Positions 1 to 58,640 of a stretch of 58,640 nucleotides of DNA are shown here, piece by piece (the stretch's first letter is position 1; each line of letters starts with the position of its first letter). The notes under the pieces are model-generated. The model was not told the DNA's origin and ran no database searches. It saw only the letters and a program-made list of their open reading frames with translations. The stretch is from contig JAGCVY010000009.1 of NCBI GenBank assembly GCA_017962105.1, forward strand, positions 1 through 58,640. The letters run 5' to 3'. The position numbers were made by a program, and so were the translations under genes. The DNA is from Lachnospiraceae bacterium (GTDB lineage Bacteria; Bacillota; Clostridia; Lachnospirales; Lachnospiraceae).

Positions 1-145
1 TTACGAACGCCCTTTCAAGGGCGGCGACGAGTCAAAGGCAATAAGGCTTGAACAACGTGAAAGCCAGCGCCTTTAGGCGCTGGCCGGTAACGACCCCTTA
101 TAGGGGCGAGCAAACCACCCGTTAGACGGGTGGTTATGATTATAG
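1..145 (+). mobile_element. Right end of an IS200/IS605-type element with guide-RNA-like hairpins (partial)
   Basis: Four stem-loops follow one another: 8-23 (CGCCCT/AGGGCG), 63-84 (nine perfect pairs around TTTA), 94-106 (CCCC/GGGG) and 113-135 (ten perfect pairs around TAG), followed by TTATGATTATAG. Serial hairpins ending in a perfect subterminal hairpin are typical of the 3' end of IS200/IS605 elements, where the end of tnpB overlaps an omega (reRNA) guide RNA. No tnpB coding sequence is visible because the window starts here, so both family and boundary are inferred. The last hairpin has no T-run toward icd and is not a good icd terminator. Confidence 0.45.
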
Positions 146-166
146 TATTATGTTTTGTTAGTTGTA

Positions 167-1384
167 TCAGTCTGCAAGAAGTGCCGTTAGGCGTTCGCGG
201 ATCGCTGCGATGAAATCTGCGGAATTGACTGCCTTTACGGGGTAGCCTTCGCTGACCATACCTGCAAGGTCCTTGGTCATGATGCCGTCGTTCAGGGTTT
301 TCATAACGGCTGCCTCAAGGGCGTCGGCATATCGTACGAGGTCGGCAAGGCCATCCTTCTCGCCGCGCTTGCGGAGAGCGCCGGACCATGCGTAGATAGT
401 TGCCACGGGGTTCGTGGATGTCTCCTCGCCCTTTAAGTAGCGGTAGTAGTGGCGGGTTACGGTGCCGTGAGCAGCCTCGTACTCAAAGTTTCCGTCGGGG
501 CTCACAAGAACGCTGGTCATCATTGCAAGGGAGCCGAAAGCGGTGGAAACCATATCGCTCATCACATCGCCATCGTAGTTCTTGCAGGCCCAGATGAAGC
601 CGCCCTTGCTGCGGATAACGCGGGCAACAGCGTCGTCGATCAGGGTGTAGAAATATGTGATGCCTGCGGCTTCAAACTTCTCCTTGTACTCGTTGTCATA
701 AATCTCCTGGAAGATGTCCTTGAAGCGGTGATCGTACTTCTTGCTGATGGTATCCTTGGTGGAGAACCAGAGATCCTGCTTCACGGAGAGAGCGTACTCA
801 AAGCAGCTGCGGGCAAAGGACTCGATGGAAGTGTCCTTGTTGTACATGCCCTGAAGAACGCCGGGGCACTCGAAATCGTATACGGTCTCACGCATCTCGG
901 TTCCGTCCTCACCGGTGAAGACGAGTTCCGCCTTGCCCTTGCCGGGGATGCGGAATTCGGTGTTCTTGTACACGTCGCCATACGCGTGACGGGCAATGGT
1001 GATGGGCTTCTCCCAGGTGCGTACATTGGGCTTGATGGAATCGATCATGATGGGAGCGCGGAACACGGTACCGTCAAGAATCGCACGGATGGTGCCGTTA
1101 GGGCTCTTCCACATCTGCGAAAGATTGTACTCCGTGACGCGCTGTGCGTTCGGGGTGATGGTGGCACATTTGACGGCAACGCCGTATTTCTTCGCGGCGT
1201 AGCTTGCGTCAAGAGTGATCTGGTCCTTGGTTTCCTCGCGCTTTACAAGGCCGAGGTCGTAGTACTCCGCCTTCAGGTCGACGAAGGGAAGGATCAGCTC
1301 GTCCTTGATCATTTGCCAAAGGATCCTTGTCATCTCGTCGCCGTCCATCTCGACGAGGGGGGTGGTCATGGAAATCTTGTTCAT
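167..1384 (-). CDS. icd: NADP-dependent isocitrate dehydrogenase, eukaryote-like type
   Basis: This 405-residue protein should oxidise isocitrate to 2-oxoglutarate and CO2 with NADP+ in the cytosol. The substrate loop KSPNGTIRAILDGTVFR and the arginine-bearing ARHAYGDVY segment match the homodimeric family that includes human IDH1/IDH2, rather than the E. coli Icd type. The length is normal. The start follows AAAGGAGGCACC. It lies 22 bases behind the aconitase gene on the same strand, so the two are almost certainly co-transcribed to make 2-oxoglutarate for glutamate synthesis. No citrate synthase is in the window. NADP specificity is inferred from the family. Confidence 0.93.
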   Translation of the reverse strand: MNKISMTTPLVEMDGDEMTRILWQMIKDELILPFVDLKAEYYDLGLVKREETKDQITLDASYAAKKYGVAVKCATITPNAQRVTEYNLSQMWKSPNGTIRAILDGTVFRAPIMIDSIKPNVRTWEKPITIARHAYGDVYKNTEFRIPGKGKAELVFTGEDGTEMRETVYDFECPGVLQGMYNKDTSIESFARSCFEYALSVKQDLWFSTKDTISKKYDHRFKDIFQEIYDNEYKEKFEAAGITYFYTLIDDAVARVIRSKGGFIWACKNYDGDVMSDMVSTAFGSLAMMTSVLVSPDGNFEYEAAHGTVTRHYYRYLKGEETSTNPVATIYAWSGALRKRGEKDGLADLVRYADALEAAVMKTLNDGIMTKDLAGMVSEGYPVKAVNSADFIAAIRERLTALLAD

Positions 1385-1406
1385 GGTGCCTCCTTTATAT
1401 GGTGAT

Positions 1407-3665
1407 TCAAGCTTTCTTGTTCTGCTCTGCGTAGTAGTTGATCAGGCAGCCGTCGAGGATGATGGTCTTCTCCTCGGGGGTGAGGCCGATGATCTGAAGC
1501 GTAATATCGCTGATGGCGCCGTCCTTCGTGAGGACCTTCGCCGGAAAATCGGTATCCCCTGCTGCAATCTTGGCCCGAACATCCGGGATGAAGACGTAGT
1601 CACCGTCCTCGTACGGAAAATCCGCTCCCTCGGGAAGGGTGAAGGGCAGGATACCCCAGTTGATACAGTTGCTTCTGTAGCGCTTGGTTGCATACTCGTA
1701 GCAGATGTTCGCATAGCCTCCGAGCACCTTCTGGCAGGATGCCGCCTGCTCGCGGGCGGAACCGTCGCCGGGCTTGTTGGCGAAGACACAGGAACCAAAC
1801 TGGGTGTTGCGAAGAAGTGCGTTCGCGTCGCCGAAGTTGCCGAGCACCTTCACAAGCTCCTCGGGAGCACCGCCGTCACGTCTTTCCAGGTCGAGTTTAT
1901 GGATTTCCTTGCTGCGGCCCACATACTCGGGAACGCGGCGGGAGAGTGCAAACTCGGAAAGACGAAGCGGGTTGCTTCGGTAGGAACTGGTCTCACCGGA
2001 AGGGATCAACTCGTCGGTGGTGGTCACCGGGTCACGGATCACAGCGGCAAGCTTCACAAGCATGTTGTCGGTGAGGGCTTCCATGGAAGGCCAGTCGGTG
2101 ATGTTGGGACCGAGGATCAGCTCCGCATTCGGATCGGCCTTGCCGAATCCGTAGTAGATGCGGTTGCGGTACACGGTCTTGTCGAAATGGTATTCGTGGT
2201 TCGGTACCTCGTAATCGATGTCGGTTGCAGCGGTGATCACGCCGCCGTTGGCTGCCGTTGCAGCGATGCTTCTCGCATCCATAAGGGCAACGCCTGCCAG
2301 CTGCCCGTCGGACGGCTTCGAACCCTCACGGTTCGGGAAGTTACGCGTCGTATGACGGATGGAGAGACCGTCGTTGGCGGGAACGTCTCCTGCGCCGAAG
2401 CACGGCCCGCAGAAGGACGGCTTGATGATGGCGCCGGCCTTGAGCAGCTCCGCGGTAGCACCGGTCTTGGTGAGCTCGAGGCTTACCGGAACGCTGGTGG
2501 GATAGACATTTAACGAAAAATACCCGTTGCCGCAGTGCTTATCCTTGAGGATCGCAGCAGCCTCATCGATGTTGTCGAACAGACCGCCGGAGCAGCCGGC
2601 GATAACACCCTGGTCCGCGTAGACCTTGCCGTCACGCACTTTGCTGCGGAGGTCGTACTTGTGGCCTTTGAACTTCGCCGCAGCCTCCGCCTCAACCCCT
2701 GCGAGGATCTCGTCCGCGTTGGCAACGAACTCGTGGATCGTGTACGCGTTGGAGGGATGGAACGGAAGAGCGATCATGGACTCTGCCTTGTCAAGGTCGA
2801 TGGTAATGAACCGGTCGTAGTATGCAACGCTGCCGGGAGCGAGCTTCTTGTAGCACTCCGGACGCTCGTGTGCAATGTAATGCTTCTGCGTGATCTCATC
2901 GGTTTCCCAGATGGACGAGAGACAGGTGGTCTCGGTGGTCATGACGTCGATACCGTTGCGGAAGTCGATCGGAAGATTCTTTACGCCGGGGCCGACAAAT
3001 TCGAGCACGCGGTTCTTCACGAAACCGTTGGCAAAGGTCTCCTTGACAAGTGCAAGGGCAATGTCGTGAGGACCGATTCCCTTCTTCGGGGTACCGGTCA
3101 GATAAACCAGTACAACCTCGGGCATGTTGAGATCCCAGGTGTTGTTGAGAAGCTGCTTTACAAGCTCGGGACCGCCCTCGCCGACACCCATGGTGCCGAG
3201 TGCGCCGTAGCGGGTGTGAGAGTCGGAACCGAGGATCATGTTGCCGCAGGCGGAGAGCTCCTCACGGGCGTAGGAGTGGATAACGCTCTGGTTCGCGGGA
3301 ACATAGATGCCGCCGAATTTCTTCGCAGCGGAAAGACCGAAGACATGGTCGTCCTCGTTGATGGTACCGCCGACAGCACAGAGACTGTTGTGGCAGTTGG
3401 TCATGGCGTAAGGAAGCGGGAACTCCTTGAGTCCGCTGGCGCGCGCCGTCTGTATGATGCCGACATAGGTGATGTCGTGGGACACCATGGCGTCGAATTT
3501 TATCTTCAGTTTGTTGTCGTCTCCGGACGTGTTGTGAGCCGACAGAATGCGGTAGGCAATGGTAGCCTTGCGGGCTTCCTCTGCGGAGACGGAAGAGCTC
3601 GCGGAGGGAACGCCGTCCACAAGGAAAATGCCGCCGTCATGCAGGGTTACACAGGTATCACTCAT
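1407..3665 (-). CDS. acn: Aconitate hydratase
   Basis: This 752-residue protein of the aconitase family should isomerise citrate and isocitrate through cis-aconitate on a [4Fe-4S] cluster. Visible marks are GSDSHTRYG, a first cluster cysteine in VIAGCSGGLFDN and the cysteine pair in PSFCGPCFGAGD. The length is like mitochondrial aconitase and shorter than the roughly 900-residue AcnA/IRP1 type. The start has AAGGAG nine bases upstream. It is the first gene of the acn-icd operon, driven by the near-perfect promoter at 3754-3782. A related hydratase substrate cannot be excluded, but the neighbouring icd supports aconitase. Confidence 0.92.
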   Translation of the reverse strand: MSDTCVTLHDGGIFLVDGVPSASSSVSAEEARKATIAYRILSAHNTSGDDNKLKIKFDAMVSHDITYVGIIQTARASGLKEFPLPYAMTNCHNSLCAVGGTINEDDHVFGLSAAKKFGGIYVPANQSVIHSYAREELSACGNMILGSDSHTRYGALGTMGVGEGGPELVKQLLNNTWDLNMPEVVLVYLTGTPKKGIGPHDIALALVKETFANGFVKNRVLEFVGPGVKNLPIDFRNGIDVMTTETTCLSSIWETDEITQKHYIAHERPECYKKLAPGSVAYYDRFITIDLDKAESMIALPFHPSNAYTIHEFVANADEILAGVEAEAAAKFKGHKYDLRSKVRDGKVYADQGVIAGCSGGLFDNIDEAAAILKDKHCGNGYFSLNVYPTSVPVSLELTKTGATAELLKAGAIIKPSFCGPCFGAGDVPANDGLSIRHTTRNFPNREGSKPSDGQLAGVALMDARSIAATAANGGVITAATDIDYEVPNHEYHFDKTVYRNRIYYGFGKADPNAELILGPNITDWPSMEALTDNMLVKLAAVIRDPVTTTDELIPSGETSSYRSNPLRLSEFALSRRVPEYVGRSKEIHKLDLERRDGGAPEELVKVLGNFGDANALLRNTQFGSCVFANKPGDGSAREQAASCQKVLGGYANICYEYATKRYRSNCINWGILPFTLPEGADFPYEDGDYVFIPDVRAKIAAGDTDFPAKVLTKDGAISDITLQIIGLTPEEKTIILDGCLINYYAEQNKKA

Positions 3666-3753
3666 AGAAACACTCCTTTGTTATTATTCGGCGGATCGCG
3701 GTGTTGGGATCCGTTTCCGCCGGCGCTGACAGAGCCGCAGCGCATACAGAATC

Positions 3754-3782
3754 ATTGTAATAAAATCGGGTGGATGTGTCAA
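3754..3782 (-). promoter_or_regulatory. Sigma-A promoter of acn-icd
   Basis: On the minus strand, TTGACA (3782-3777), a 17-bp spacer and TACAAT (3759-3754). This implies an untranslated leader of about 80 bases. The leader holds a 7-bp inverted repeat (CGGCGGA at 3689-3695, TCCGCCG at 3716-3722) that could be a regulatory hairpin. Nothing else is visible in the 3666-3967 gap except the rightward promoter. Confidence 0.85.
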
Positions 3783-4801: not shown

Positions 4802-4829
4802 TCCGGTTTGATATTGAAACAAGAATGAA

Positions 4830-4870: not shown

Positions 4871-5662
4871 CTATGGATTTCGCATGAGAAGCGGGTCGCT
4901 GTTTCGGATGATCTGAAACCCGCAGGACTGTAGTACGGCAAGGGACGCCCGGTTGTTCCTATGGACATAGGCGTACAGCTCCCTGTCGGCAGTTTCGGCT
5001 CTTGCGTAGGCGATAAGGGCCCGGAGTATCGCGGTGCCGTATCCCCTGCCGCGGAGTGCGGGGGGCACGTAGTAATCCACCGTGGTCAGAGGGCCATAGT
5101 CCGATGATTCCTCGAAGACGCTTCCGTACCCTATGGGCGTGCCGTATAATTCGGCGCGGAACATTCCGGAATTTTCCGTGAGGAAGGAGAGCGCGAGCCG
5201 GTTTCGGTACTGCCTTCGGACATCTGCTTCGGTGCAGTTCTTTTGCTCCGGCGTAAGCATGAAGGGCTCGGTGCGGTAATCCTCGTAAAGGTCACAATAC
5301 TCTGCCTCCGAGAGAGGATACAGGGCAAGAGGACCGGACGTAAAAACAGCCGTCCTTCCGGTGAGAGACCGGTTCAGGGTTTCGCAGTACTCCGGCGTCA
5401 GCGACGAGAGCGATTGGATGATCTCTCCGCAGGAGAGGCGGATCCCGTCATGCTCATAGCCGACCACAGGGAAGCCCTCGACCTCGAGTCTGCAGGCGGT
5501 ATCCTCCGAGTCGGTCACCACGAGGGTCTCGTCCTTCTCCACAGAGATATCATTTACGGAACGCACAACGGAGATTCCCCTTGCCTGAAATTCCGGATAG
5601 TACGGCAGGCACTGCGGCGAATCGGCAGTATCGTAAAATAGTAATAAAATCAGTGTTTTCAT
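4871..5662 (-). CDS. GNAT family N-acetyltransferase with N-terminal extra domain
   Basis: This 263-residue protein has a C-terminal GNAT domain (about 125-263) with the acetyl-CoA loop PPALRGRGYGTAILRALI and the late strand SLAVLQSCGFQII. The first 100 residues look like a small Rossmann/HAD-like domain (VVTDSEDTACRLEVEGFPVVGY) of unknown role. The acceptor substrate is unknown. The ATG at 5662 has no ribosome site. A good promoter (5670-5698) places the transcript start within a base or two of this ATG, so translation is probably leaderless. A TTG at 5698 would give 12 more residues but lies within the promoter. Confidence 0.85.
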   Translation of the reverse strand: MKTLILLLFYDTADSPQCLPYYPEFQARGISVVRSVNDISVEKDETLVVTDSEDTACRLEVEGFPVVGYEHDGIRLSCGEIIQSLSSLTPEYCETLNRSLTGRTAVFTSGPLALYPLSEAEYCDLYEDYRTEPFMLTPEQKNCTEADVRRQYRNRLALSFLTENSGMFRAELYGTPIGYGSVFEESSDYGPLTTVDYYVPPALRGRGYGTAILRALIAYARAETADRELYAYVHRNNRASLAVLQSCGFQIIRNSDPLLMRNP

Positions 5663-6651: not shown

Positions 6652-7618
6652 CGTTGTCGGCGTGGAGAATTATCTCCATACGCATAACCTGGGGTATCAC
6701 CTGCTGGGAAGCCGTTACGATTCCGTGCGCAGGGACGCCAGGCGCGGAAGCGATGTGTATTACAAGGCGGGAGAGCTCTTCGTCCGCCACGTGTGCAGCG
6801 AGATGGGGCGCACAAACCGTTTCGGCTCCGTGATCCGCGCGGACGAAAACGGAATGTATTTTCTGCCGATGGATCAGAGCATGCACGAGGATTCCTACCG
6901 GTTCGTTGTGCAGGAAGCGTTAGAACAGCAGATCGAACTGCTGGAAAGCCGGTTTGACGAGGTCTATATTAATCTTCAATCCAATGAAAATGACACGACT
7001 TTGGCGATGCTGGAGAGGGCTGAGGTGGTTGTCGTCTGTCTGCCGGCCACGGTGGAATGTTTCGATGAATTCTACAGCCTGTATCGTTCCATGATCGACA
7101 AATGTTTCTTTGTTTTCTTCAGTAACGGTGAGCTTTCGGCGCCGATGAAACAGAAGATCCGACAGTATCTTCCCAAGCATACAACCCGATGCTGCCATAT
7201 GATCATGACGCGGATCCTGCGCAATTACCTTTCCAATGGCCGCGGGCTGGATTATCTGGACCGGTTCCGCATCTTTGGGAGGGAGGAGGACGCATTTTCC
7301 GCAGGCGTTGCGGAGACGGAGGAGCGGTATCAATCGTTGTTTGCGAAAGGAGAATCGGATACCGCAGACTACAGAAGCTGGAAGAACCTCACCGACCGGC
7401 ATTTCGGGGATGAGGCGATCGGCGCTGCCCTGTACGGCGAGGCAAAGCCGGAGGAATCCGAGCGGTCGACCATACGGACGCTCCGGTATATCTGCCGATG
7501 GCTCATAAAATATGAGTATCGGGAGGCAGGGGACGACTGCGTCCAGATCACGGAGAGAATGATCCGTCGGAAAATGATCCCGCGGGAGGTCGTTTCCTGG
7601 CAATCCGCGAACTCCTGA
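6557..7618 (+). CDS. Unrecognised 353-residue protein, possibly P-loop-like but degenerate
   Basis: This protein was not recognised with confidence. It opens with a hydrophobic strand, MLVAYWSP, and later has VYINLQSN and EVVVVCLPAT. These strands are arranged as in ParA/MinD-type ATPases, but no GKT/GKS P-loop follows the first strand, so nucleotide binding is doubtful. The C-terminal 150 residues are charged and helical. The ATG at 6557 has GGAGG nine bases upstream; a stronger ribosome site serves the overlapping frame at 6538. It appears to be a single gene under the 6436 promoter. The ATPase-like reading is inference only. Confidence 0.7.
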   Translation: MLVAYWSPSYREETAQILTLVGGMCCREFPCNVVGVENYLHTHNLGYHLLGSRYDSVRRDARRGSDVYYKAGELFVRHVCSEMGRTNRFGSVIRADENGMYFLPMDQSMHEDSYRFVVQEALEQQIELLESRFDEVYINLQSNENDTTLAMLERAEVVVVCLPATVECFDEFYSLYRSMIDKCFFVFFSNGELSAPMKQKIRQYLPKHTTRCCHMIMTRILRNYLSNGRGLDYLDRFRIFGREEDAFSAGVAETEERYQSLFAKGESDTADYRSWKNLTDRHFGDEAIGAALYGEAKPEESERSTIRTLRYICRWLIKYEYREAGDDCVQITERMIRRKMIPREVVSWQSANS

Positions 7619-9240: not shown

Positions 9241-9422
9241 AGAAATAGACCTCCCGAAAGGTAGAACTTTTATTGGATTCAATATCGCAAACAAAGCGAT
9301 GCGAGATTGAAAGTCATGTTATGTAGAATTGAAAACTACGTACATATTAGCACACTCGCCATGCAAACGCAACAGGATTTTCCGAAAACGTATTTTTGTT
9401 TTGCAGAAACATGGATTTTCTG

Positions 9423-9507: not shown

Positions 9508-11769
9508 ATGAAAGACAAGACGAAAGGCTGGCTGATGATCCTCGGACTCGTCCTGATTATCGCGGGAATCGCGTTCTGGGGAGCTACCAGCTACATCTAT
9601 GATGACGTAACCGGCGTGAAGGATGTCAGTCTCGGACTGGACCTTGCGGGCGGTGTCAGCGTCACGTATCAGACCGTGAAGGAGGATCCGACTTCCGAAG
9701 AGATGGAAGACCTCCAGACGAAACTGGAAAAGCGTGCAACCTCGCTGAGCACGGAAGCCCGTGTGTACCGCGAAGGAAAGCGCAGGATTAATGTTGACAT
9801 TCCCGGCATGGACGACGCCAAGACGGTTTTCGATACCCTCGGCGATGCCGGTAACATCTACTTTATATATGCGGTTGGCAAGGACGGAACCAGCAACATC
9901 AAGTCATCGACTACCGCTGAGAGCGGTTACGAGCTTGCCCGCGACATGAAGACCATCATTGAAGCGGGTGACGTTGTAATCGACGGTTCCGATATCGCAA
10001 GTGCGGATCCCGCCACCAGAAATGACAACGGCGCGATCGTGTATGAGGTTGTTCTTGAGCTCAACGAAGCCGGCGGCAAGAAGTTTGAGGAAGCTACGGG
10101 CTACTGCGCAGGCAAGACCTACGGTTCCCTTGAGAACATCATCGCGATTGTCTACGACAATGTCGTATATTCCGCTCCGAACGTTAAGTCGAAGATCAGC
10201 GGCGGCAGCGCAACCATCACCGGTTCGAGAAACATGGAGGAGGCGAGAAGCCTTTCCACGATCATCCGTATCGGTGCGCTTCCCATTGAGATCGAGGCGC
10301 TCCGCTCGAACGTTGTAGGCGCTACCCTCGGCAGCCGCGCCCTTCGCACCAGCCTGATCGCCGGTGTTATCGGTTTGGCTCTGGTTTGCCTTTACATGAT
10401 CGTTTTCTACCGTGTGCCCGGCGTGGCAGCAAGCTTAAGCCTTCTTATCTATCTCGGACTGATGCTTGCTATGCTTCTTGCATTCCACGTGACACTTACG
10501 CTTCCCGGTATCGCCGGTATCATTTTGTCCATCGGTATGGCCGTGGATGCGAACGTCATTATATTCACACGAATACGAGAGGAACTTGCCACAGGCAAGA
10601 CGGTCCGCTCTTCCGTGAAGATCGGTTACCGCAAGGCGGTCAGCGCCATCATCGACGGTAACGTGACAACCTTGATCGCAGCAATCGTTCTGTATTTCCG
10701 CGGAAGCGGCGTTATCAAGGGCTTCGCGACAACCCTCGGTATCGGTATTGTGATCTCGATGTTTACGGCCTTCGTTATCACTTACTTCATTATGAAGGCG
10801 TTCTACTACATCGGTATTGACAAGGTCGGTGCATACGGCGTGGCAAAGGAGAGAAAGACGCTCCGCATCATCCAGAACTGGAAGAAGTACGTTATCATTT
10901 CCGGCTCCATCATCGCACTCTGCATCGTGATGCTGATCGTAAACAAGTCCTCCACCGGCAATGCGCTGAACTACGGCCTTGACTTCGTCGGCGGTACTTC
11001 CGTGCAGGTTACCTTCAACGGCAATGCACCTTCCAACGCAGACATGGAGAGATTTGTAAGTGATACCATTTCGGAAAATGCTACGGTCTCCGCGGTAGAA
11101 GGCAGAAACATCCTTGTTGTAAAGACAAAATCCCTGAATGATCAGACTCTGGATACTTTGAAAAAGTCTTTAATGAGCACCTACCAGATCGGCGAGTCCG
11201 ATATCGAGACCGAGACCATCAGCGGTGTGATCTCCGGAGAAATGAAGAGCAACGCCATCGTTGCGGTTTTGGTTGCTACGGTATGTATGCTGATCTACAT
11301 CCTGATCCGTTTCTCGAACATGGCATTTGCCGCAAGCTCCGTGCTTGCCCTGATCCATGATATCCTGGTTGTACTGTGTCTCTACGCAGTCATCCGGCTC
11401 ACGGTCGACACGAGCTTCATCGCATGTATGCTGACCATCGTCGGTTACAGTATCAACGCGACCATCGTTATCTTTGACCGTCTGCGTGAGAATCTGGGCG
11501 CGATGAAGAAGCATGAAAATCTTGCCGATGTGGTCAACCGAAGCATAACAGAGACCTTCACTCGAAGCATCCATACTTCGGTTACCACGTTGATTACCGT
11601 TGTGATGCTGATCATCCTCGGCGTGGAGTCGGTTCGTATCTTTGCAATCCCGATGGCAGTCGGTATCCTGTGCGGCGGATACTCCTCCGTATGTATCGCA
11701 GGTTCCCTCTGGTACTTCTTTAAGACACGCAAGAAGAGCGCCGGGAAGGCAGTTACAAAGAAAGCATAA
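9508..11769 (+). CDS. secDF: Fused protein translocase subunit SecDF
   Basis: This 753-residue membrane protein joins SecD (about 1-435) and SecF (about 445-753). They use the proton gradient to pull proteins through SecYEG from the outside. Each half has a first membrane helix, a large extracytoplasmic domain with the family motif (SLGLDLAGGV near 41; YGLDFVGGTSVQV near 490) and five more helices, including GMAVDANVIIFTRIREE and the matching SINATIVIFDRLREN. Fusion is usual in Firmicutes. AAGGAAGG precedes the ATG. It is a single transcription unit with its own promoter and a hairpin terminator. Confidence 0.97.
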   Translation: MKDKTKGWLMILGLVLIIAGIAFWGATSYIYDDVTGVKDVSLGLDLAGGVSVTYQTVKEDPTSEEMEDLQTKLEKRATSLSTEARVYREGKRRINVDIPGMDDAKTVFDTLGDAGNIYFIYAVGKDGTSNIKSSTTAESGYELARDMKTIIEAGDVVIDGSDIASADPATRNDNGAIVYEVVLELNEAGGKKFEEATGYCAGKTYGSLENIIAIVYDNVVYSAPNVKSKISGGSATITGSRNMEEARSLSTIIRIGALPIEIEALRSNVVGATLGSRALRTSLIAGVIGLALVCLYMIVFYRVPGVAASLSLLIYLGLMLAMLLAFHVTLTLPGIAGIILSIGMAVDANVIIFTRIREELATGKTVRSSVKIGYRKAVSAIIDGNVTTLIAAIVLYFRGSGVIKGFATTLGIGIVISMFTAFVITYFIMKAFYYIGIDKVGAYGVAKERKTLRIIQNWKKYVIISGSIIALCIVMLIVNKSSTGNALNYGLDFVGGTSVQVTFNGNAPSNADMERFVSDTISENATVSAVEGRNILVVKTKSLNDQTLDTLKKSLMSTYQIGESDIETETISGVISGEMKSNAIVAVLVATVCMLIYILIRFSNMAFAASSVLALIHDILVVLCLYAVIRLTVDTSFIACMLTIVGYSINATIVIFDRLRENLGAMKKHENLADVVNRSITETFTRSIHTSVTTLITVVMLIILGVESVRIFAIPMAVGILCGGYSSVCIAGSLWYFFKTRKKSAGKAVTKKA

Positions 11770-13619: not shown

Positions 13620-14318
13620 ATGGGCATCTGTATGATATTCGGCGCCGGCGAGCGCGTTACTGCGGACAGAGTTATGATACCCGCAGCCGACGATCTTGTG
13701 ATCGCGGCGGACGGCGGTCTCGTGTGGCTCTCGGAGCTTACGGATATCGCGGCAACCTTCCGTCCGGCCCTTTTTATCGGCGACTTCGACTCGTTCCTCG
13801 ACCGGGAGGAAGAGCGCGGTTTCAACCGGGATTCCGTTGCAAAGCTCTGCGAAACCTTCGGAACCGAACTGATCCCGCTCCCTGTAGTTAAGGATGACAC
13901 GGACACCGGAGCAGCTGTAGCGGAAGGCCGGAAGCGCGGATATCAAACGTTTCAAATCTACGGCGGTACCGGAGGAAGATGGGATCATACCATCGCAAAT
14001 TGCCAGCTTCTTGCCAACATCGCAAGAAACGGCGGAAGAGGATTCCTTGTAGGAGCGGGGCTGTGTGCGGTTGCGATCCATGAGGAAACAGTGCGGATCT
14101 GCGGAAAACCCGGGACCGGGTTCAGCGTATTTTCCGCAGGAGGAACCGTGGAGGGCGTCACCATCCGCGGCGCAAAATACGAGCTCAACGGATCGCCACT
14201 TTCGGATGACTATGCGCTCGGTGTGAGCAATTCCTTCTCTGCATCCCCTGCCGAGATCGGATGCAAAAAAGGAACCCTCCTGATCGTGGGAGAGTTCCTT
14301 CCGAATGATTGTGAATAA
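13620..14318 (+). CDS. thiN: Thiamine pyrophosphokinase
   Basis: This 232-residue enzyme transfers pyrophosphate from ATP to thiamine to make TPP. Family marks are the N-terminal ADGGLVWL, the metal-binding IGDFDS, KDDTDTGAAV and YGGTGGRWDHTIAN, and a C-terminal beta-rich thiamine-binding part. The ATG at 13620 is chosen for its AAAGGTGG ribosome site; a GTG three codons upstream lacks one. It follows recJ closely and meets the thiamine transporter thiT tail to tail with only nine bases between stop codons. Uptake and activation of the vitamin therefore sit together but on opposite strands. Confidence 0.93.
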   Translation: MGICMIFGAGERVTADRVMIPAADDLVIAADGGLVWLSELTDIAATFRPALFIGDFDSFLDREEERGFNRDSVAKLCETFGTELIPLPVVKDDTDTGAAVAEGRKRGYQTFQIYGGTGGRWDHTIANCQLLANIARNGGRGFLVGAGLCAVAIHEETVRICGKPGTGFSVFSAGGTVEGVTIRGAKYELNGSPLSDDYALGVSNSFSASPAEIGCKKGTLLIVGEFLPNDCE

Positions 14319-21987: not shown

Positions 21988-22043
21988 AGGTATTTTCCGC
22001 ACGATATAAAGATATTACGTGTAATTGAGAAAGAGGAATTGTT

Positions 22044-29639: not shown

Positions 29640-29682
29640 TGTTCATGCGAAACCGCATGATCCGGAAAATGGGGGAGCAGTG

Positions 29683-36080: not shown

Positions 36081-36161
36081 CAGCCTTGGAAAATACTATA
36101 CAAAAAAACGGGGTAAGTCTGTGAATTTTGCGTGACATCCTCCGAAATCGGAAAATACGGG

Positions 36162-42811: not shown

Positions 42812-42840
42812 AGTATACTTTATTTTCCGTAAAATGGCAA
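42812..42840 (-). promoter_or_regulatory. Promoter of the activase gene
   Basis: On the minus strand, TTGCCA (42840-42835), a 17-bp spacer and TATACT (42817-42812). The spacer contains one copy of the dispersed motif ATTTTCCG. The leader is about 110 bases with a small ACCGC/GCGGT hairpin. Confidence 0.75.
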
Positions 42841-44757: not shown

Positions 44758-45873
44758 ATGGGGAAGAAAAACAGGAAAATTATGATGGCCATTGTTTTGG
44801 CGGTAACCGTTTGTCTTGCGACAGGCTGTCAAAAAGATCGGGAAAGACAGGAGGAGCTATGCCTCCGCGAGGGATATCGCGCCATCATGAAATATCTTCA
44901 GGATGAGGAAACGGGCGCGGAATTATGTAACAATACTGTTTCCATCGCCGAAAAAGGATCAGAGAGCGCTGAACTTGTGTATGGAAGTTTCACGCGTATT
45001 GGGTCCAGAGAACAGGAAGTATCCATTTACAGCATGGCAACCCATATCCTGGATGATCCCGCCGGCAAAACGTATGTGTCGTCATTACAGGAAGAGCGAG
45101 CTCTCAGTATCACTGAGGAACTGTGCAAAAACATACCGGTTTCGTACAAACCGATGTGGGTCCTTGCGGGGAAGAAGACGTATTTTCCGGTGCGCTGCTT
45201 TACGGATGCGAAATTCGGGTCAGGCAGCACCGATGGAGTTGAGCGATGGGACGATACCAGCGGATCCTATGCCTATGTATGCATCCCCGCGGATCTGTCC
45301 GTAGAGTACCTTGACCAGCGGGTGATAAAACCGGAGTTTTCCAGGGTTTCGGTACTGAAAAAAGAGAGCAGCTTTGATGAGAAGGCGTTGGAACTTCTGG
45401 AGGATGTTTCGTCTTTTGAACTGAAATACTACGATGACCCGGAAACAAACTACAACAAGCTTCAATCGGACCAGATTTTCGAACTGATGGATATGCTTAT
45501 CTATGAAAAGTCCGTGTGGAGAAATCAGCTTCATCTGGTAATTCAGCTTACGGATGCTGATTTTACTGAGAAAACAGCGGAACTGGTTGCCTGGGTGAAA
45601 AGCATCGGCGTTGCTGCGGTGACATTTTACGATGCCGAGGGAACTCACTGCTGGACTGTAGCTAACGTAAATCTCATACAGAAAAACAAACCCGACAGAA
45701 CGCCTGCGGAGCCTTTCCGGTACCCGTGTTTTCAGGTGTCCGCGGGGGATAACCCGGACGAGCCCATCGATCCTGATGAGGTGAGGTATTTTAATTACGA
45801 GACGCTTGAGGAGGTGTTTTTCTACTTTGATTCCTCCGAGGAGCGCTATCGTCTGAGAGGGATCTTAGAGTAA
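44758..45873 (+). CDS. Lipoprotein of unknown function
   Basis: This 371-residue protein starts with a lipoprotein signal (lysine-rich tip, hydrophobic stretch, lipobox LATGC with cysteine near 24) and so is expected to be lipid-anchored outside the membrane. The mature part is acidic, about 345 residues, with no recognised domain. AAGGGGGTAG precedes the ATG. It sits between pyrD and pyrE and is followed by a multi-helix membrane protein 52 bases later. The pair probably acts together, but nothing in the sequence ties it to pyrimidine metabolism. Confidence 0.82.
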   Translation: MGKKNRKIMMAIVLAVTVCLATGCQKDRERQEELCLREGYRAIMKYLQDEETGAELCNNTVSIAEKGSESAELVYGSFTRIGSREQEVSIYSMATHILDDPAGKTYVSSLQEERALSITEELCKNIPVSYKPMWVLAGKKTYFPVRCFTDAKFGSGSTDGVERWDDTSGSYAYVCIPADLSVEYLDQRVIKPEFSRVSVLKKESSFDEKALELLEDVSSFELKYYDDPETNYNKLQSDQIFELMDMLIYEKSVWRNQLHLVIQLTDADFTEKTAELVAWVKSIGVAAVTFYDAEGTHCWTVANVNLIQKNKPDRTPAEPFRYPCFQVSAGDNPDEPIDPDEVRYFNYETLEEVFFYFDSSEERYRLRGILE

Positions 45874-45925: not shown

Positions 45926-47512
45926 ATGAAATCGTTTGGTAAAATACAACGTCTGGCGTGGTACGAAATCGGCCGGAATAAGATGAAAGCGGTATTGTCG
46001 GTAATAGGGATCGGAATCGCTTATCTGCTGATCCTTCTTCCGATGTACGCCACGGAATATGACGAAAACGGAATAATGGTATATGCCGTTCTGATCGCAA
46101 TTATCACATTGATCGGAACAAAGTCCGCCTACGGGATGTTCCGGGATTTATACTTTGCCCGGGAGGACAATTCCCCGGAAAATTCTGCGACGCCGCAGGA
46201 GCGATATCTGTCTAAGGTGTGGGTCGTAATATACATGCACCTCATCCCGGCGATTGCCATCGGGTTGATCGGTATTGTTATCGCGTCGATCGTTGATGAC
46301 AGCCTTTGGGCTGCAAAATATATGCTTCTGGTGACGCCTATCATGGCCTGCGCCATGATGGCTGTTGATGCCATTATGGTGATCTGTGCCGTCTATTCGG
46401 GACACAAAGGCAAAAAAAGAGCAGTTTTGTTTCTTTTCCTGAGCGTTGCCAGCGGATTGGCTTACGGGATCCTTCGGGGACTTCTGATGGTATATGCCGG
46501 AAAGGTCCGAAAGCCGACGAAGATCATTTTCCCGTGGGGATTACGATATATCCTGAACAACAGTGCCGCTCACAAGGGACTTCGATATGCGGAGATCGCA
46601 TGGCTCCTGCAGGGGCTGTTCTACTGCGTGCTGTGTATCGCCGTGATCGTTGTTTTGTGCCGTGTTTATTGCAGATACGCGTCATCGAAATCCGATGAGA
46701 AGGACAGCGACAGATGCCTGTTCGGTGCGGCGGTTACAACAGCACTTGTAATGACATACGGGGCAGTTTTCCTCATCGGGTTCCAGATTCTTCCGCTTCT
46801 GCCCGGGATTATTCTTTTCTATTGGCTGATCTATGACCGATACTTTAAACCTCAGAAGGACAGTACGCGGCTTCTTCAATGGGGGATGAATTTCCTGATC
46901 ACTACTGCTGCATATGTTTTGTTTTCCGTGTTCCTGTATTTCACCAGCGGTCTCGGAACGGTTTATGCCAAGTCACCGCAGGAGCTCGGGGATGCCGCTG
47001 TCCTGATCGAAATCCAGGAGAATCAGAATGCGAAGAGCAGCATCCTGATTTACGGCGGAAAATACTCGGTGATGTACCACCCTGACGGAAACGGAAAGCA
47101 AGCCTCTGTACTTTCCACTGATGTCTTAACCGACAAGCAAATCCGGGAGGCGACAGGGATTGTTCAGACGTATATTGCCCACAGGGAGAAAGACCTGAGA
47201 AGCTTCTTTCAACTGCTGTTCCGGGGTGACAGCGGCGCAGATGTGCCCGGAGTCCTAACGGCGAAGCCGCGGGGAAGCGATACGAAATGTACGGTGTGCA
47301 TTTTCCGTGTGAAGCAAAATGTTTACGACGCGGATTCCGTCAATATAGTAACGGATACTATCGACGAGATGGAGATTGTCCTGAAACAGGGAGGGTATCT
47401 TACCGGCGCCCAGGCAGAGGAACTGGTGGAGGAACTCCGGAAAACCCGATGCCTGTCGAAAGGGGAGGGAGTTCTCTTCAACGACTATTGGAATTTGTGT
47501 ATAAATCCGTAG
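45926..47512 (+). CDS. Polytopic membrane protein, unrecognised
   Basis: This 528-residue protein has about eight hydrophobic helices in the first 370 residues (starting near 21) and a hydrophilic C-terminal domain of about 150 residues. The helix pattern vaguely resembles ABC-2 type permeases, but no ATPase gene lies beside it and no motif confirms that. The ATG at 45926 is eight bases after GGGGGA; an ATG two codons earlier is too close. It is paired with the lipoprotein gene upstream and ends in TAG. No function can be assigned. Confidence 0.75.
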   Translation: MKSFGKIQRLAWYEIGRNKMKAVLSVIGIGIAYLLILLPMYATEYDENGIMVYAVLIAIITLIGTKSAYGMFRDLYFAREDNSPENSATPQERYLSKVWVVIYMHLIPAIAIGLIGIVIASIVDDSLWAAKYMLLVTPIMACAMMAVDAIMVICAVYSGHKGKKRAVLFLFLSVASGLAYGILRGLLMVYAGKVRKPTKIIFPWGLRYILNNSAAHKGLRYAEIAWLLQGLFYCVLCIAVIVVLCRVYCRYASSKSDEKDSDRCLFGAAVTTALVMTYGAVFLIGFQILPLLPGIILFYWLIYDRYFKPQKDSTRLLQWGMNFLITTAAYVLFSVFLYFTSGLGTVYAKSPQELGDAAVLIEIQENQNAKSSILIYGGKYSVMYHPDGNGKQASVLSTDVLTDKQIREATGIVQTYIAHREKDLRSFFQLLFRGDSGADVPGVLTAKPRGSDTKCTVCIFRVKQNVYDADSVNIVTDTIDEMEIVLKQGGYLTGAQAEELVEELRKTRCLSKGEGVLFNDYWNLCINP

Positions 47513-49383: not shown

Positions 49384-49411
49384 TCGGAAAATGTCGTAAT
49401 TCCGGCCGGAA

Positions 49412-52738: not shown

Positions 52739-53308
52739 ATGGCTACGAAAAATATTATGATCGTCGGCGTCGGCGGTCAGGGAACATTGCTTACTTCCCG
52801 CATCCTCGGCGGTATCGCCAGAGAGTCGGGATATGACGTAAAGCTCTCCGAGGTTCACGGAATGGCTCAGAGAGGCGGAAGTGTTGTTACGTTTGTCCGC
52901 TACGGTGAGTCCGTTGCAGAGCCCATCGTGGAAGAGGGATGCGCGGATGTGCTGATCGCTTTCGAGCGCCTCGAGGCACTTCGCTATGCGCACTTCCTCA
53001 AAAAGGACGGCGTTCTGATCGCAAACGACCAGCGCATCGACCCGATGCCTGTTGTCATCGGCGCTGCAGAATATCCGGAAAATATCCTCGAGAACCTCGA
53101 GAAGAAGTATAAGGTACTTAAGATTGACGCTATGAGCGAGGCGAAGAAGCTCGGCAATGCGAGAGCGTTTAACACGATCGTGCTCGGCATGGCAGCAAAG
53201 CATATGGATTTTCCGAAGGAAGCCTGGATCTCCGTCATCGAACATACCGTTCCGCCGAAGACCATTGATCTCAACATCAAGGCGTTCCTCACGGGATACG
53301 AGATGTAA
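52739..53308 (+). CDS. iorB: Indolepyruvate:ferredoxin oxidoreductase, beta subunit
   Basis: This 189-residue gamma-type subunit completes the IorAB enzyme. The N-terminal IVGVGGQGTLLTSRILG and VHGMAQRGGSVVTFVR are family marks of the oxidoreductase gamma domain. The ATG at 52739 starts two bases after the iorA stop, with GAGGTG as ribosome site; longer frames start inside iorA and are not needed. A stem (GGGGAA/TTCCCC, about 53317-53342) follows without a T-run, so read-through to the PHP gene is likely. Confidence 0.94.
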   Translation: MATKNIMIVGVGGQGTLLTSRILGGIARESGYDVKLSEVHGMAQRGGSVVTFVRYGESVAEPIVEEGCADVLIAFERLEALRYAHFLKKDGVLIANDQRIDPMPVVIGAAEYPENILENLEKKYKVLKIDAMSEAKKLGNARAFNTIVLGMAAKHMDFPKEAWISVIEHTVPPKTIDLNIKAFLTGYEM

Positions 53309-54237: not shown

Positions 54238-55749
54238 ATGAATAAGATTTTGGAAAACTTAAAAAACGGATGCGAGGTTCGGGAGAGCCTTGCGTCAGCA
54301 TGTGAGCTTCTTCGCACTTCGGGAGGGACAGGCGTCCCCTCGGAGGCACGGGAAGCTCTTGTTGTATTCGGAGAACAATACCTCGGATCCGAGGAACCGA
54401 AGGTTCGAAAAAACGCTGCAAGACTTCTCGGACTTCTTCCCGAGGCCGGAGTAGATTCCCTGGTGGAGGCGTACCGAAACGAGGAGACGCGATTTGTGAA
54501 AAGCGCGTATCTGCAGGCCCTCGCGGGGAGAGACATCTCCGCACACCGCGAGTTCCTCAGCAATCGCCTCGACGAGCTGCGGCATACCGAGGTGACGGAG
54601 GAAAACCGTAAGCATATCGGCGAGGAGATCGCCGTGCTGCAACGGCTTGTGGAAATTACGGTTGAAAGGCATCCGTTCCGGGGATATGAAGCGGACAATA
54701 CAGTTTTGTTCGTTGTAAACCCGTGCTATCGTGAGACATTTCTGAAGTCGGTTCCCATAGTCCGCAAAAAGGCGGTAAACGGCGGCGTACTGATCCGCAC
54801 AACGAAGCTCTCTGAGGTTTTAACAAACCGGATCTGGAGAGAGGCAGTGTTCCGCGTTCCCGAGGCGTTATCGGTACCGACGGACCCCTATGAGGCAGCC
54901 AGGGTTTTAGCCGGCGAAACGGTTTTGCGTTACATCGCCGAACGGCTTACCGGGGAAGGGGCAATTTCCTACCGGATCGACATGCGTTGCCGCGATGAGA
55001 ATCTCAAGAGCACCTTTGTAAAGCGGCTATCGCAGGAGACCGACCGTATTGCCGCAGGCAAGCTGATAAACTCGCCGGGAGATTACGAACTGACCTTCCG
55101 AATCTCCGAAACCGAAGGGCAGACGTACCGTCTTGGAATCCTTTTCACAGGCATACAGGACCGCAGGTTTTCCTACCGCAGGGAGACTGTTGCGGGAAGT
55201 CTCCATCCGACGGATGCCGCTGCCGTTTTGGCCATAGCTAAGCCTTATCTCGTTGCGGATGCACAGGTGCTCGACCCGTTCTGCGGCGCAGGGACCATGC
55301 TTGCGGAGCGGATGAAAGCCGGCAGGATCCGTTCGGCTTTCGGTGTGGATACCTTCGGCCCGGCCATTGAGAAGGCAAGGGGGAATGTTCGATCGGAGAG
55401 CGTGTGGTTCATTCACCGTGATTTCTTTGATTATCGTCAGGATCACATGTTTGACGAGATCATCACCAATATGCCTTTCGTCGTTTCCGAGTCGGAAAAT
55501 ACAACCGGCACTTCAAAATCCTCGGGCGACAATCTCATGAATGCATCCGCGATTGCGGAGCTTTACCGAAAGTTCTTCCGCAAGGTTCCGGAACATCTGC
55601 GGGAAAACGGAACGATGATCATGGTTTCCCATGATCCGAAGATTGCGGAATCCTCGATTCCGAGGAATATGTCGATCGTCCTGAAAATCCCCATGCGGGA
55701 GAGGGGCGAGATGGCAGCGTATGTGATCCGTTTTTTGGAGAGAGCATGA
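54238..55749 (+). CDS. Putative RNA (guanine-N2) methyltransferase with HEAT-like N-terminus
   Basis: This 503-residue protein has a helical N-terminal part (about 40-130) resembling HEAT repeats, a middle region likely to bind RNA, and a C-terminal methyltransferase domain like RlmL/Trm14. Motif I is VLDPFCGAGTMLAER (near 341). Motif IV reads IITNMPFVV instead of the usual NPPY/NPPF, which could affect catalysis. The C-terminal fold is otherwise complete. The substrate is not known. The ATG at 54238 follows a weak GGGAGC. The nfo gene follows by 21 bases. Confidence 0.85.
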   Translation: MNKILENLKNGCEVRESLASACELLRTSGGTGVPSEAREALVVFGEQYLGSEEPKVRKNAARLLGLLPEAGVDSLVEAYRNEETRFVKSAYLQALAGRDISAHREFLSNRLDELRHTEVTEENRKHIGEEIAVLQRLVEITVERHPFRGYEADNTVLFVVNPCYRETFLKSVPIVRKKAVNGGVLIRTTKLSEVLTNRIWREAVFRVPEALSVPTDPYEAARVLAGETVLRYIAERLTGEGAISYRIDMRCRDENLKSTFVKRLSQETDRIAAGKLINSPGDYELTFRISETEGQTYRLGILFTGIQDRRFSYRRETVAGSLHPTDAAAVLAIAKPYLVADAQVLDPFCGAGTMLAERMKAGRIRSAFGVDTFGPAIEKARGNVRSESVWFIHRDFFDYRQDHMFDEIITNMPFVVSESENTTGTSKSSGDNLMNASAIAELYRKFFRKVPEHLRENGTMIMVSHDPKIAESSIPRNMSIVLKIPMRERGEMAAYVIRFLERA

Positions 55750-55770
55750 AAATACAGGAGGGAGAATCGT

Positions 55771-56676
55771 ATGCTTGGTTCGCATGTTGGATTAGGCGGC
55801 AAGGAACAGTTCTTAGGCTCTGTGAAGGAGGCGCTTTCCTACGGCGCCGAAACCTTCATGGTTTACACGGGAGCGCCGCAAAATACACGCCGTAAGGATC
55901 TCGCGGAAATGCGGATCCCGGAGGCGCAGGCACTTATGAAGTCGAACGGGATCACCGAGTTTGTCGTACACGCTCCGTATATTGTAAACCTCGGAAATAC
56001 CGTAAAACCGGATGCCTTTGATTTTGCCGTGGAGTTTCTTCGCGAAGAGCTTCGCAGGACCGCTGCCATGGGAAGCCGCACGATGGTGCTCCATCCCGGA
56101 GCCCACGTAGGAGAGGGCGAGGATGCCGGAATTATGCAGATCATCAAAGGTCTGAACCTGATCCTGGATGCGGATACGGAGGCGCACATCGCCCTGGAGA
56201 CCATGGCGGGCAAGGGCAGCGAGCTGGGAACAAGCTTTGAGCAGATGGCACGCATTTACGACGGCGTCATTCACAACAGTAAGCTTCGTCTCTGCCTTGA
56301 CACCTGTCACTTGAATGATGCGGGCTACCCGGTAAAGGATGATTTTGAGGGAGTACTCGCGGCCTGTGAGTGGCATTTTCCGCTCAACCAGATTGCCTGT
56401 ATTCATCTGAATGACTCGAAAAATGAGCAGGGCGCCGCGAAGGACCGTCACGAGAATATCGGCTTCGGAACCATCGGGTTTGACCGGTTGTGTGCGATCA
56501 CAAAAATGACGGAATTTGCGAATACGCCGATCATTCTGGAGACTCCGTATGTCACCAAAGAGGGGGAAAAGGAGCGCAGTTATTCACCCTACAAACATGA
56601 GATAGCAATGCTTCGCTCGGGAGTATTCGATCCGGAGTTGATCGAAAAGATCCGGCGTGAAGCGGAACAGGCATAA
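55771..56676 (+). CDS. nfo: Endonuclease IV (AP endonuclease)
   Basis: This 301-residue enzyme cleaves DNA at abasic sites in base-excision repair. The tri-zinc signatures are present: HAPYIVNLG, MVLHPGAHVGEG, IALETMAGKG, CLDTCHLNDAGY and HLNDSKNEQGAAKDRHENIGFG. AGGAGGG precedes the ATG. The length is typical. The phosphoesterase gene follows by 11 bases in the same run. Confidence 0.97.
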   Translation: MLGSHVGLGGKEQFLGSVKEALSYGAETFMVYTGAPQNTRRKDLAEMRIPEAQALMKSNGITEFVVHAPYIVNLGNTVKPDAFDFAVEFLREELRRTAAMGSRTMVLHPGAHVGEGEDAGIMQIIKGLNLILDADTEAHIALETMAGKGSELGTSFEQMARIYDGVIHNSKLRLCLDTCHLNDAGYPVKDDFEGVLAACEWHFPLNQIACIHLNDSKNEQGAAKDRHENIGFGTIGFDRLCAITKMTEFANTPIILETPYVTKEGEKERSYSPYKHEIAMLRSGVFDPELIEKIRREAEQA

Positions 56677-56687
56677 CGGGGGATACC

Positions 56688-57887: not shown

Positions 57888-57901
57888 AACACGGAGATAA
57901 C

Positions 57902-58477
57902 ATGATAGTAATCATCTCAAAAATCGAACGCTTCGCCGATACGCCGCCTTCCTTGCTGGATGAGGGGCATTTCGAACAATACGGTAAAGCGAAAAGCGTA
58001 AAGCGCCGTGCGGAAATTACCGCCGGAGCCGGCATCCTTCGGTATGCCCTGAAGGAATACGGCTTTACCTTCGGGGATGAGCCGCTGCCGGTTAAGTTCA
58101 CCGGGGAGGGTAAACCGTATTTTCAGGATGGACCTTGTTTCAGTCTGTCTCACAGCGGGGACTTGATCGTCTGTGCAGTTGATGCCGATGAGGTAGGCGT
58201 GGATATCGAGCGGGTATCGAAATTTGCGAAAACAAGGATCGCCCGGAAAATATTGAATCCTTTCGAGGAGAATGCTTTCGCCGGCATTTCTGATACAGAC
58301 GAAGCGGCAAAGTATCTTGCCGTCAAATGGACCGGAAAGGAAGCTATCGCTAAGCTGATCGGAAAGGGTTTGGGAGTGGCATTTTCCAAACTCCATGAAG
58401 AAGACTGTTTCATGCATACCTTTTCGTTTGTGTCAGACGGCGTTTCGTATATTGTCCGGACTGCCTCCGAAAAATGA
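57902..58477 (+). CDS. 4'-phosphopantetheinyl transferase superfamily protein
   Basis: This 191-residue Sfp-type enzyme transfers the phosphopantetheine arm of CoA to a carrier protein. The Mg-binding VGVDIERV and the KWTGKEAIAKLIGKGL segment match the family signature (usual W-x-x-K-E-A). It is short for Sfp and closer to compact members. The carrier protein it serves is unknown and no synthase lies nearby. It ends the rightward run; an IS element begins about 22 bases after its stop. Confidence 0.88.
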   Translation: MIVIISKIERFADTPPSLLDEGHFEQYGKAKSVKRRAEITAGAGILRYALKEYGFTFGDEPLPVKFTGEGKPYFQDGPCFSLSHSGDLIVCAVDADEVGVDIERVSKFAKTRIARKILNPFEENAFAGISDTDEAAKYLAVKWTGKEAIAKLIGKGLGVAFSKLHEEDCFMHTFSFVSDGVSYIVRTASEK

Positions 58478-58507
58478 AGACAAAAAAGGAGCCTCCTCGT
58501 GATATGC

Positions 58508-58551
58508 TACCCCCAAGTAGGACATTGAAATATAAAACCTACTTGGGGGTA
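58508..58551 (+). repeat. Perfect 14-bp inverted repeat in the IS left end
   Basis: TACCCCCAAGTAGG (58508-58521) and CCTACTTGGGGGTA (58538-58551). In RNA read in from outside, the stem would cover GGGGGT, the only ribosome-site-like sequence before the transposase ATG, and so block its translation. Confidence 0.8.
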
Positions 58552-58556
58552 TTTCT

Positions 58557-58640
58557 ATGTCCAAAAGAAGTAAGATTGAGCCAATACTAAAGGTCCAGCT
58601 CGTAGAACAGTATCTGAGAGGGGAAATTGGAATCAATGAA
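58557..58640 (+). CDS. IS3-family transposase OrfA, N-terminal fragment
   Basis: Only 28 codons are in the window, beginning MSKRSKIEPILKVQLVEQYL. This matches the start of the helix-turn-helix OrfA protein of IS150-group IS3 elements. The reading frame continues beyond the window edge. Confidence 0.75.
   Translation, partial: MSKRSKIEPILKVQLVEQYLRGEIGINE

Follow-up and report, generated by a model that had tools for sequence, protein, structure and literature searches.

The window analyzed here, a stretch of 58,640 nucleotides from a Lachnospiraceae bacterium (GenBank contig JAGCVY010000009.1), is contig C27 of G000, a metagenome-assembled genome (MAG) of 2,587,466 bases in 105 contigs that is 95.9% complete. 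Dispersed over its genes and intergenic regions are 41 exact copies of the octamer CGGAAAAT (plus strand, 20; minus strand, 21); this word, a candidate DNA uptake tag, is the subject of the present study. An earlier note on the same DNA had counted 39 copies. Of the coordinates it gave, 38 are exact and one, 53218 on the minus strand, is corrected to 53208; two plus-strand copies, at 7568 and 24158, had been missed. Six of the 41 copies are intergenic with respect to the genes found by our own simple gene caller.

1542..1549, plus, exact CGGAAAAT match
1614..1621, plus, exact CGGAAAAT match
5171..5178, minus, exact CGGAAAAT match
7294..7301, minus, exact CGGAAAAT match
7568..7575, plus, exact CGGAAAAT match (newly found)
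9377..9384, minus, exact CGGAAAAT match, intergenic
11072..11079, plus, exact CGGAAAAT match
14129..14136, minus, exact CGGAAAAT match
16198..16205, minus, exact CGGAAAAT match
17206..17213, plus, exact CGGAAAAT match
21131..21138, plus, exact CGGAAAAT match
21932..21939, plus, exact CGGAAAAT match
21992..21999, minus, exact CGGAAAAT match, intergenic
22525..22532, plus, exact CGGAAAAT match
22678..22685, minus, exact CGGAAAAT match
24158..24165, plus, exact CGGAAAAT match (newly found)
24714..24721, minus, exact CGGAAAAT match
27198..27205, minus, exact CGGAAAAT match
28927..28934, minus, exact CGGAAAAT match
29039..29046, minus, exact CGGAAAAT match
29663..29670, plus, exact CGGAAAAT match, intergenic
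30036..30043, minus, exact CGGAAAAT match
31414..31421, minus, exact CGGAAAAT match
31960..31967, minus, exact CGGAAAAT match
32082..32089, plus, exact CGGAAAAT match
35633..35640, plus, exact CGGAAAAT match
36149..36156, plus, exact CGGAAAAT match, intergenic
38044..38051, minus, exact CGGAAAAT match
41272..41279, minus, exact CGGAAAAT match
41799..41806, plus, exact CGGAAAAT match
42822..42829, minus, exact CGGAAAAT match, intergenic
45182..45189, minus, exact CGGAAAAT match
46176..46183, plus, exact CGGAAAAT match
47056..47063, plus, exact CGGAAAAT match
47300..47307, minus, exact CGGAAAAT match
49385..49392, plus, exact CGGAAAAT match, intergenic
53076..53083, plus, exact CGGAAAAT match
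53208..53215, minus, exact CGGAAAAT match (position corrected)
55493..55500, plus, exact CGGAAAAT match
56375..56382, minus, exact CGGAAAAT match
58244..58251, plus, exact CGGAAAAT match

Abundance, distribution and shape of the motif

CGGAAAAT is the most frequent 8-mer of the window and the top-scoring one under Markov models of orders 1, 2 and 3. In 100 dinucleotide shuffles of the window it occurred 3.48 times on average and at most 7 times. Within the window genes, 35 copies were observed, whereas 200 within-gene shuffles of synonymous codons gave a mean of 4.3 (standard deviation 1.9, largest 10). Thus the twenty-fold over-representation claimed previously holds relative to uniform base use (1.8 copies expected), but becomes approximately 12-fold relative to dinucleotides and 8-fold relative to codon use. 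Under the order-6 model CGGAAAAT is outside the 14 listed window 8-mers; this model holds the core 7-mers themselves, so the octamer is invisible to it. The core GGAAAAT/ATTTTCC occurs 59 times, in the range of the earlier estimate of about 55, and AC, GC or GT directly follows 24 of the 41 copies (about 24 of 39 in the earlier note). The window copies occupy all six phase/orientation classes, in agreement with the earlier observation of several codon phases and intergenic copies, and the conclusion drawn from it, that codon bias is not enough, is borne out by the enrichment left under the codon-aware null and by the lack of confinement to one codon phase.

In the whole genome we found 1839 copies of CGGAAAAT, or about one per 1.4 kb (~0.7 per kb), and 23 copies of the reversed control word, which is thus some 80-fold rarer. 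The balanced orientation noticed in the window extends to the genome (917 forward and 922 reverse copies). The codon-aware and phase tests were run on samples of the genome rather than on the whole of it. In a 455-kb sample with 367 genes identified by the same simple caller, 243 genic copies were observed vs. 31.2 in 100 within-gene codon shuffles (standard deviation 5.6, largest 45). Each of the six phase/orientation classes contained 20-69 copies vs. 3.4-6.4 expected, a 3.7- to 18-fold enrichment, and 52 kb of intergenic DNA from the same sample contained 65 copies vs. 9.6 predicted by a second-order Markov model; three further copies straddled gene edges. Since all six classes and the intergenic DNA are enriched, codon bias fails as an explanation.

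The spacing of CGGAAAAT looks random: 546 copies in 791,510 bases of G000 are on average 1450 bases apart, and gaps longer than 5 kb number 17 vs. 17.3 expected. Strand bias of the Chi type or of the FtsK-orienting polar sequence (KOPS) type is not observed in this fragmented MAG, for which no origin-terminus plot is available; in the 455-kb sample, neighbouring copies are alike in orientation in 133 cases and opposite in 155. At the same time, among pairs at most 50 bp apart in the 791-kb set, 17 of 18 are inverted (binomial p 1.4e-4), and 6 of the 18 are intergenic. Inverted pairs of uptake sequences can act as transcription terminators; terminators as the sole cause of the motif were rejected, as such close pairs are few. 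Several long motif-free segments were also seen in G000. One of 6.4 kb (C92:36502-42920, L133), at the minor pilin end of the genome's own pilus locus, has a low G+C content (0.44), as if exchanged or fast evolving; another of 5.7 kb (C20, L108) carries genes that by eye are ParA/ParB-like and resembles a mobile element; the third, of 7.8 kb (C40:54944-62731, G+C 0.46), contains low-G+C genes of accessory appearance.

A single-substitution scan of CGGAAAATG and CGGAAAATGC defined a motif of approximately 10 bp, C-G-[GAT]-[AC]-A-A-A-T-[GA]-[CTA]. The first base is tolerant, with changes at 4-7 times expectation. All three changes at the second base of CGGAAAATG occur at 1.0-1.6 times expectation, changes at the seventh base at 0.2-1.7 and at T at 0.1-0.3; a single substitution is still enriched at the fifth base (C, 3.7) and likewise at the sixth (T, 3.2). 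The exact 9-mer has 123 copies, while every single-mismatch word has at most 54. Beyond position +9 the flanks of 310 copies have at most a weak bias, which rules out a longer repeat family. An origin in start codons or Shine-Dalgarno sites (the variant GGAAAATG contains ATG) was likewise rejected, as copies occur in all phases and on both gene strands. Other unusual words were encountered in the sampled genomes: in G000, G001, G002, G007, and G014, more than one phase class has an excess of CTTCGGAA/TTCCGAAG, perhaps as part of UUCG-loop hairpins, and TAGTAATA, CTATGAG, and the palindrome ATTCTAGAAT are unusually frequent in G000 and may be parts of longer repeats.

Dialects, conservation and foreign DNA in the genus

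The closest named relatives of the window LeuS protein (90-96% identity) belong to Lachnospiraceae MAGs from water buffalo rumen and goat omasum and to RUG14385 (L012, L013, L014, L016); the host is a member of a rumen Lachnospiraceae genus. The LeuS loci L012 to L016 also carry CGGAAAAT: L012 and L016 have 15 copies each in 22.4 kb, L013 has 9, L014 has 5 (in 14.5 kb), and L015 has 3, vs. a mean of 0.079 per kb in the LeuS-bearing loci L017-L091. LeuS itself (17864-20299 of the window) is 81-83% identical to the LeuS of Ruminococcus records, a level equal to that of Lachnospira, which suggests inter-family transfer or strong conservation.

The 22 available genomes of the genus contain 284 to 1839 copies of CGGAAAAT, with more than 1100 copies in ten of them and at most 35 copies of the reversed controls in those ten. 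Of the 22 genomes, 18 were sampled, with coding DNA in the codon-shuffle scans ranging from 19 kb (G009, G012) to 316 kb (G000). All 8-mers were also ranked by the four of the six phase/orientation classes in which they were least enriched. In this phase-independent scan CGGAAAAT ranked first in five genomes (G000, G005, G010, G014, G019), GGAAAATG in G009, and CGGCAAAT in G007, whereas AAAATGTG and GCAAAATG ranked second in G001 and G002, respectively. De novo k-mer scans pointed to CGGCAAATG as the preferred word in G004, G007, and G016 and, less clearly, in G008 and G018; to GGAAAATGTGA in G001; and to GCAAAATG alongside CGGAAAATG in G002. Whole-genome counts of CGGCAAATG (reversed control in parentheses) are 445 (46) in G012, 431 (58) in G007, 354 (59) in G016, 221 (30) in G004, and 122 (36) in G000, vs. 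the control level in G006 (41 and 50) and G017 (41 and 66). The counts of GAAAATGTGA are 206 (0) in G001, 125 (2) in G021, 90 (2) in G012, and 36 (1) in G000.

These preferences were compared with an unrooted PilB-PilT-PilC tree of 16 genomes, the other six being outside it. Group A (G000, G002, G005, G007, G010, G014, G019) is separated from the rest with support 1.000; group B comprises G001, G004, G008, G016, and G018 (1.000), and group C comprises G006, G011, G015, and G017 (0.700). The word of group A is CGGAAAATG, with G007 as an exception and G002 mixed, and the CGGCAAATG type is common in group B. Thus the dialects track the species tree around a shared core, strongly in group A except for G007 and more weakly in group B. 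Two side signals may be mentioned here. In the sample of G011 (L144, L145), GCAAATGC and CAAATGCG resemble the tag and could be a further dialect. In that of G006 (L140, L158-L162), GCAAAAGC/CAAAAGCG is approximately 5-fold over codon shuffles, which could reflect either a different tag or an effect of codon pairs; it is outside the top six words of the phase-independent scan of this genome.

Outside the genus, 248 genomes of the family have at most 401 copies of CGGAAAATG, vs. 1060 in G000. The highest counts, 401, 340, and 337 in G118, G253, and G134 (controls 15, 5, and 20), may indicate related tags; in a 33-kb sample of G118 no clear word emerged despite the raised count. In G024, G033, and G022, de novo scanning brought up nothing comparable, and the samples of G031 and G026, in each of which only about 5 kb was called as coding, were uninformative.

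Conservation of the octamer was assessed against scrambled words of the same composition. Towards the same-dialect relatives G005, G009, G010, G014, and G019 (mean DNA identity 76%), 33 of 75 aligned octamers are identical vs. 603 of 3565 controls (p 6e-8). The corresponding fractions are 1/6 for G007, 6/23 for G002 (control 148/1142, p 0.11), and 1/7 for group C, so that conservation exceeds that of the controls only in comparisons with species of the same dialect.

Prophages were examined as foreign DNA. The terminase family PF03354 was found in one of the 22 genomes, G005, in two copies, and the 20-kb stretches around them consist mostly of phage genes as judged by eye. These 40 kb contain two copies of CGGAAAAT, whereas 19.2 are expected from the density of the G005 genome (1343 copies in 2.8 Mb; Poisson 1e-6). 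In the prophage coding DNA (33 kb) one copy was observed vs. 1.1 in codon shuffles, and in a 63-kb sample of host coding DNA there were 24 vs. 2.35. The best 80 related viral loci, taken regardless of host, contain on average 0.091 copies per kb. In G000, genes in the lowest fifth by third-position G+C content (GC3) are 4.9-fold enriched and those in the highest fifth 9.9-fold; hence low-GC3 genes are poorer in tags, yet not tag-free. One of the two terminases (G005:C8:70001-90000, L232) is reported to be 100% identical across its full 522 residues to the terminase of an IMG/VR contig of 41,244 bases (L239), so the G005 phage has been seen elsewhere too.

Competence genes and alternative explanations

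Genes of a DNA uptake apparatus are widespread in the genus. The pilus/secretion ATPase family PF00437 has matches in all 22 genomes, as well as in all 14 control genomes, and a full-length PilB-type match (~450 bits) was found in 17 of the 22. The type IV pilus locus of G000 (C92:31208-41120) includes pilB, pilT, pilC, and two main pilins, together with genes which, by eye, we take to encode a prepilin peptidase, PilN/O-like proteins, and PilV-, GspH-, PilW-, and tip-like pilins. PilM of G000 is above the Pfam cut-off and PilT above that of NCBIfam. ComEC was identified in 20 of the 22 genomes, including G000, where it exceeds the curated cut-off, and DprA in 20 of 22. ComEA was sought in G000 alone; the model of its helix-hairpin-helix repeat matches above the cut-off and the longer comEA model below.

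The word is short and independent of codon phase, occurs at ~0.7 per kb with no preferred orientation, is inverted in its close pairs, falls to chance level in prophages, and has dialects to which its conservation is bound; this combination is the anatomy described for uptake sequences. We therefore suggest, with a probability of roughly 75%, that CGGAAAAT is the core of a 'self' uptake tag, similar to the DNA uptake sequence (DUS) of Neisseriaceae, in a naturally competent rumen Lachnospiraceae genus. The earlier note had seen in the word a likeness to uptake sequences or protein-binding patterns; of these, the uptake sequence is favoured over generic protein binding, both by the related genomes (dialects, conservation, prophage depletion) and by the presence of the competence machinery genes. 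In the mechanism that we propose, free double-stranded DNA would be bound at its tag by one of the type IV pilins and pulled by PilT-driven retraction to ComEA and the channel formed by ComEC, through which one strand would enter and then recombine. If uptake favours tagged fragments, molecular drive plus selection would keep copying the tag into the chromosome, where it could reach one copy per 1.4 kb, and foreign DNA would stay untagged; where receptor specificity differs between species, the tag dialect would differ as well.

A number of observations weigh against this interpretation. Close pairs, though inverted, are not in excess (18 vs. 18.8 expected), and the prophage depletion rests on two prophages of one species. 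Towards group B, octamer identity (3/59 vs. 388/2878 controls) does not drop significantly (p 0.078), and the conservation tests for the CGGCAAATG and GGAAAATGTGA dialects had only 0 to 17 aligned copies. The top phase-independent word in G001 and G002 is the unrelated CTTCGGAA. CGGCAAAT is 5- to 9-fold enriched in total in G004, G008, G016, and G018 and is outside the top six words of their phase-independent scans. Three genomes of group C (G006, G015, G017) carry pilus genes and no clear tag in the scans; the fourth, G011, is led by GCAAATGC and CAAATGCG in 33 kb of coding DNA, too few to call. In G000, PilB and PilC match the NCBIfam equivalogs only below the cut-off, and the search for DprA was negative in two genomes, G015 and G000 itself (a MAG of 95.9% completeness). 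The main pilin of G000 matches the ComP_DUS family (PF16732) with E 3.8e-4 and 21.7 bits, below the cut-off of 27.3, and in a scan of groups A and C, with the pilins of group B left out, matches with E up to 0.1 were obtained for two of 14 and none of 7 pilins, respectively. Weak and inconsistent between pilins, these matches to ComP are a lead only. Searches of solved structures with two pilins retrieved pilins in general, mostly via the shared N-terminal helix. No receptor was identified among the pilins scanned, and no cultured member of the genus was identified.

Each of the supporting features, taken alone, could be obtained otherwise, and the main rival is an intracellular protein binding throughout the chromosome, such as a nucleoid organizer or a protein acting at a Chi-like recombination hotspot or at a segregation or SMC-type signal, whose specificity drifts between species. 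Its sites would also be dispersed, species-specific, phase-independent, and missing from new prophages, and it would accommodate the three or four genus members that have pilus machinery and no clear tag. Chi- and KOPS-like signals are strand-biased, whereas the motif is balanced both in total and between neighbours. In addition, the inverted arrangement of 17 of the 18 close pairs is a habit reported for uptake sequences (available text of PMC12616744 and PMC1852404). We regard this explanation as unlikely, though the most serious of the alternatives. Less probable still is a relic, that is, an ancestral uptake tag no longer used in the G000 lineage, with decaying sites. The absence of the motif from some genus members, the failure to find DprA in G000, and the enrichment of single-mismatch words such as CGTAAAAT, CGAAAAAT, and CGGCAAAT would fit decay; against it stand the same-dialect conservation (33/75 vs. 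17% of controls at ~76% DNA identity) and the excess of the exact 9-mer over every single-mismatch word.

The short and dispersed word could also belong to a mobile repeat, such as a repetitive extragenic palindrome (REP) or a miniature inverted-repeat transposable element (MITE), or be a site of modification or restriction. This is very improbable, as the bias past ~10 bp is at most weak, which does not fit a longer repeat, and as restriction sites tend to be avoided in genomes rather than enriched. Finally, other words, many of them palindromic, score moderately in the codon-shuffle tests of several genomes, so the codon-shuffle null, in which codon pairs are not preserved, is imperfect. Codon usage, codon-pair preference, base composition, or mutation bias as the source of CGGAAAAT itself is nevertheless barely credible, given the enrichment in all classes and in intergenic DNA, the rarity of the reversed word, the chance level in the two prophage stretches, and the near- or below-chance frequency of CGGAAAATG changes at the second base, the seventh base, and T.

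Comparison with known uptake systems

In the available text of a 2025 paper (PMC12616744), Neisseriaceae and Pasteurellaceae are the only families with a known uptake motif; the anatomy of uptake sequences is described in the accessible parts of PMC12616744, PMC3630211, PMC2397512, and PMC1852404. Searches of the open literature (most subscription papers and bioRxiv preprints lie outside it) turned up no uptake sequence of Firmicutes among the papers listed or in the available text of PMC5397411, PMC1852404, PMC5217627, and PMC2397512. The matches listed by a literal search for the 8-mer were irrelevant by their titles. It is rather probable that the tag represents a third independently evolved uptake-sequence system and the first in Gram-positives, with at least three dialects in one rumen Lachnospiraceae genus, recognized by one of the pilins encoded in the type IV pilus locus with no outer membrane needed, and partitioning gene exchange between co-resident rumen species. 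If so, a third origin in Firmicutes would mean that self-recognizing uptake evolves repeatedly, the requirement for an outer membrane would become testable, and new pairs of pilins and words would be available for the question of how a pilin reads DNA. Moreover, active transformation would be implied in rumen bacteria so far without genetics, and tagged DNA could be a key to transforming them.

The DUS of Neisseriaceae, whose receptor is the minor pilin ComP, is a continuous word of up to ~13 bp occurring about once per kb, in hundreds to thousands of copies, often in inverted pairs and rarely in acquired DNA, with dialects built on a common core and distributed along the species tree; all this is similar in the genus studied here (available text of PMC12616744, PMC3630211, PMC2397512, and PMC5397411). 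In contrast, it has a CTG core (the GCCGTCTGAA type), while CGGAAAATG has a rigid AAAT and no CTG; GCCGTCTGAA itself was not counted in G000. Other differences from Neisseriaceae are the Firmicute host of the family Lachnospiraceae, with no ComP orthologue established, and the lack of an excess of inverted close pairs. The uptake signal sequence (USS) of Pasteurellaceae is alike in copy number and spread, and has two dialects in one family according to the available text of PMC12616744. Its core (AAGTGCGGT or ACAAGCGGT) is unrelated to CGGAAAATG, the USS words themselves being uncounted in G000, and its two downstream AT-rich blocks have no counterpart here.

A parallel among Firmicutes is the diderm Veillonella parvula, as described in the available text of PMC5397411. 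A DUS was sought there by the authors, who report that words of at least 10 bp with at least 100 copies are lacking (data not shown), which leaves shorter words open. Like the genus considered here, V. parvula has a competence locus of the type IV pilus/type II secretion system (T2SS) kind with two traffic ATPases, and it prefers genomic DNA over polymerase chain reaction (PCR) products or plasmid DNA (PMC5397411, available text).

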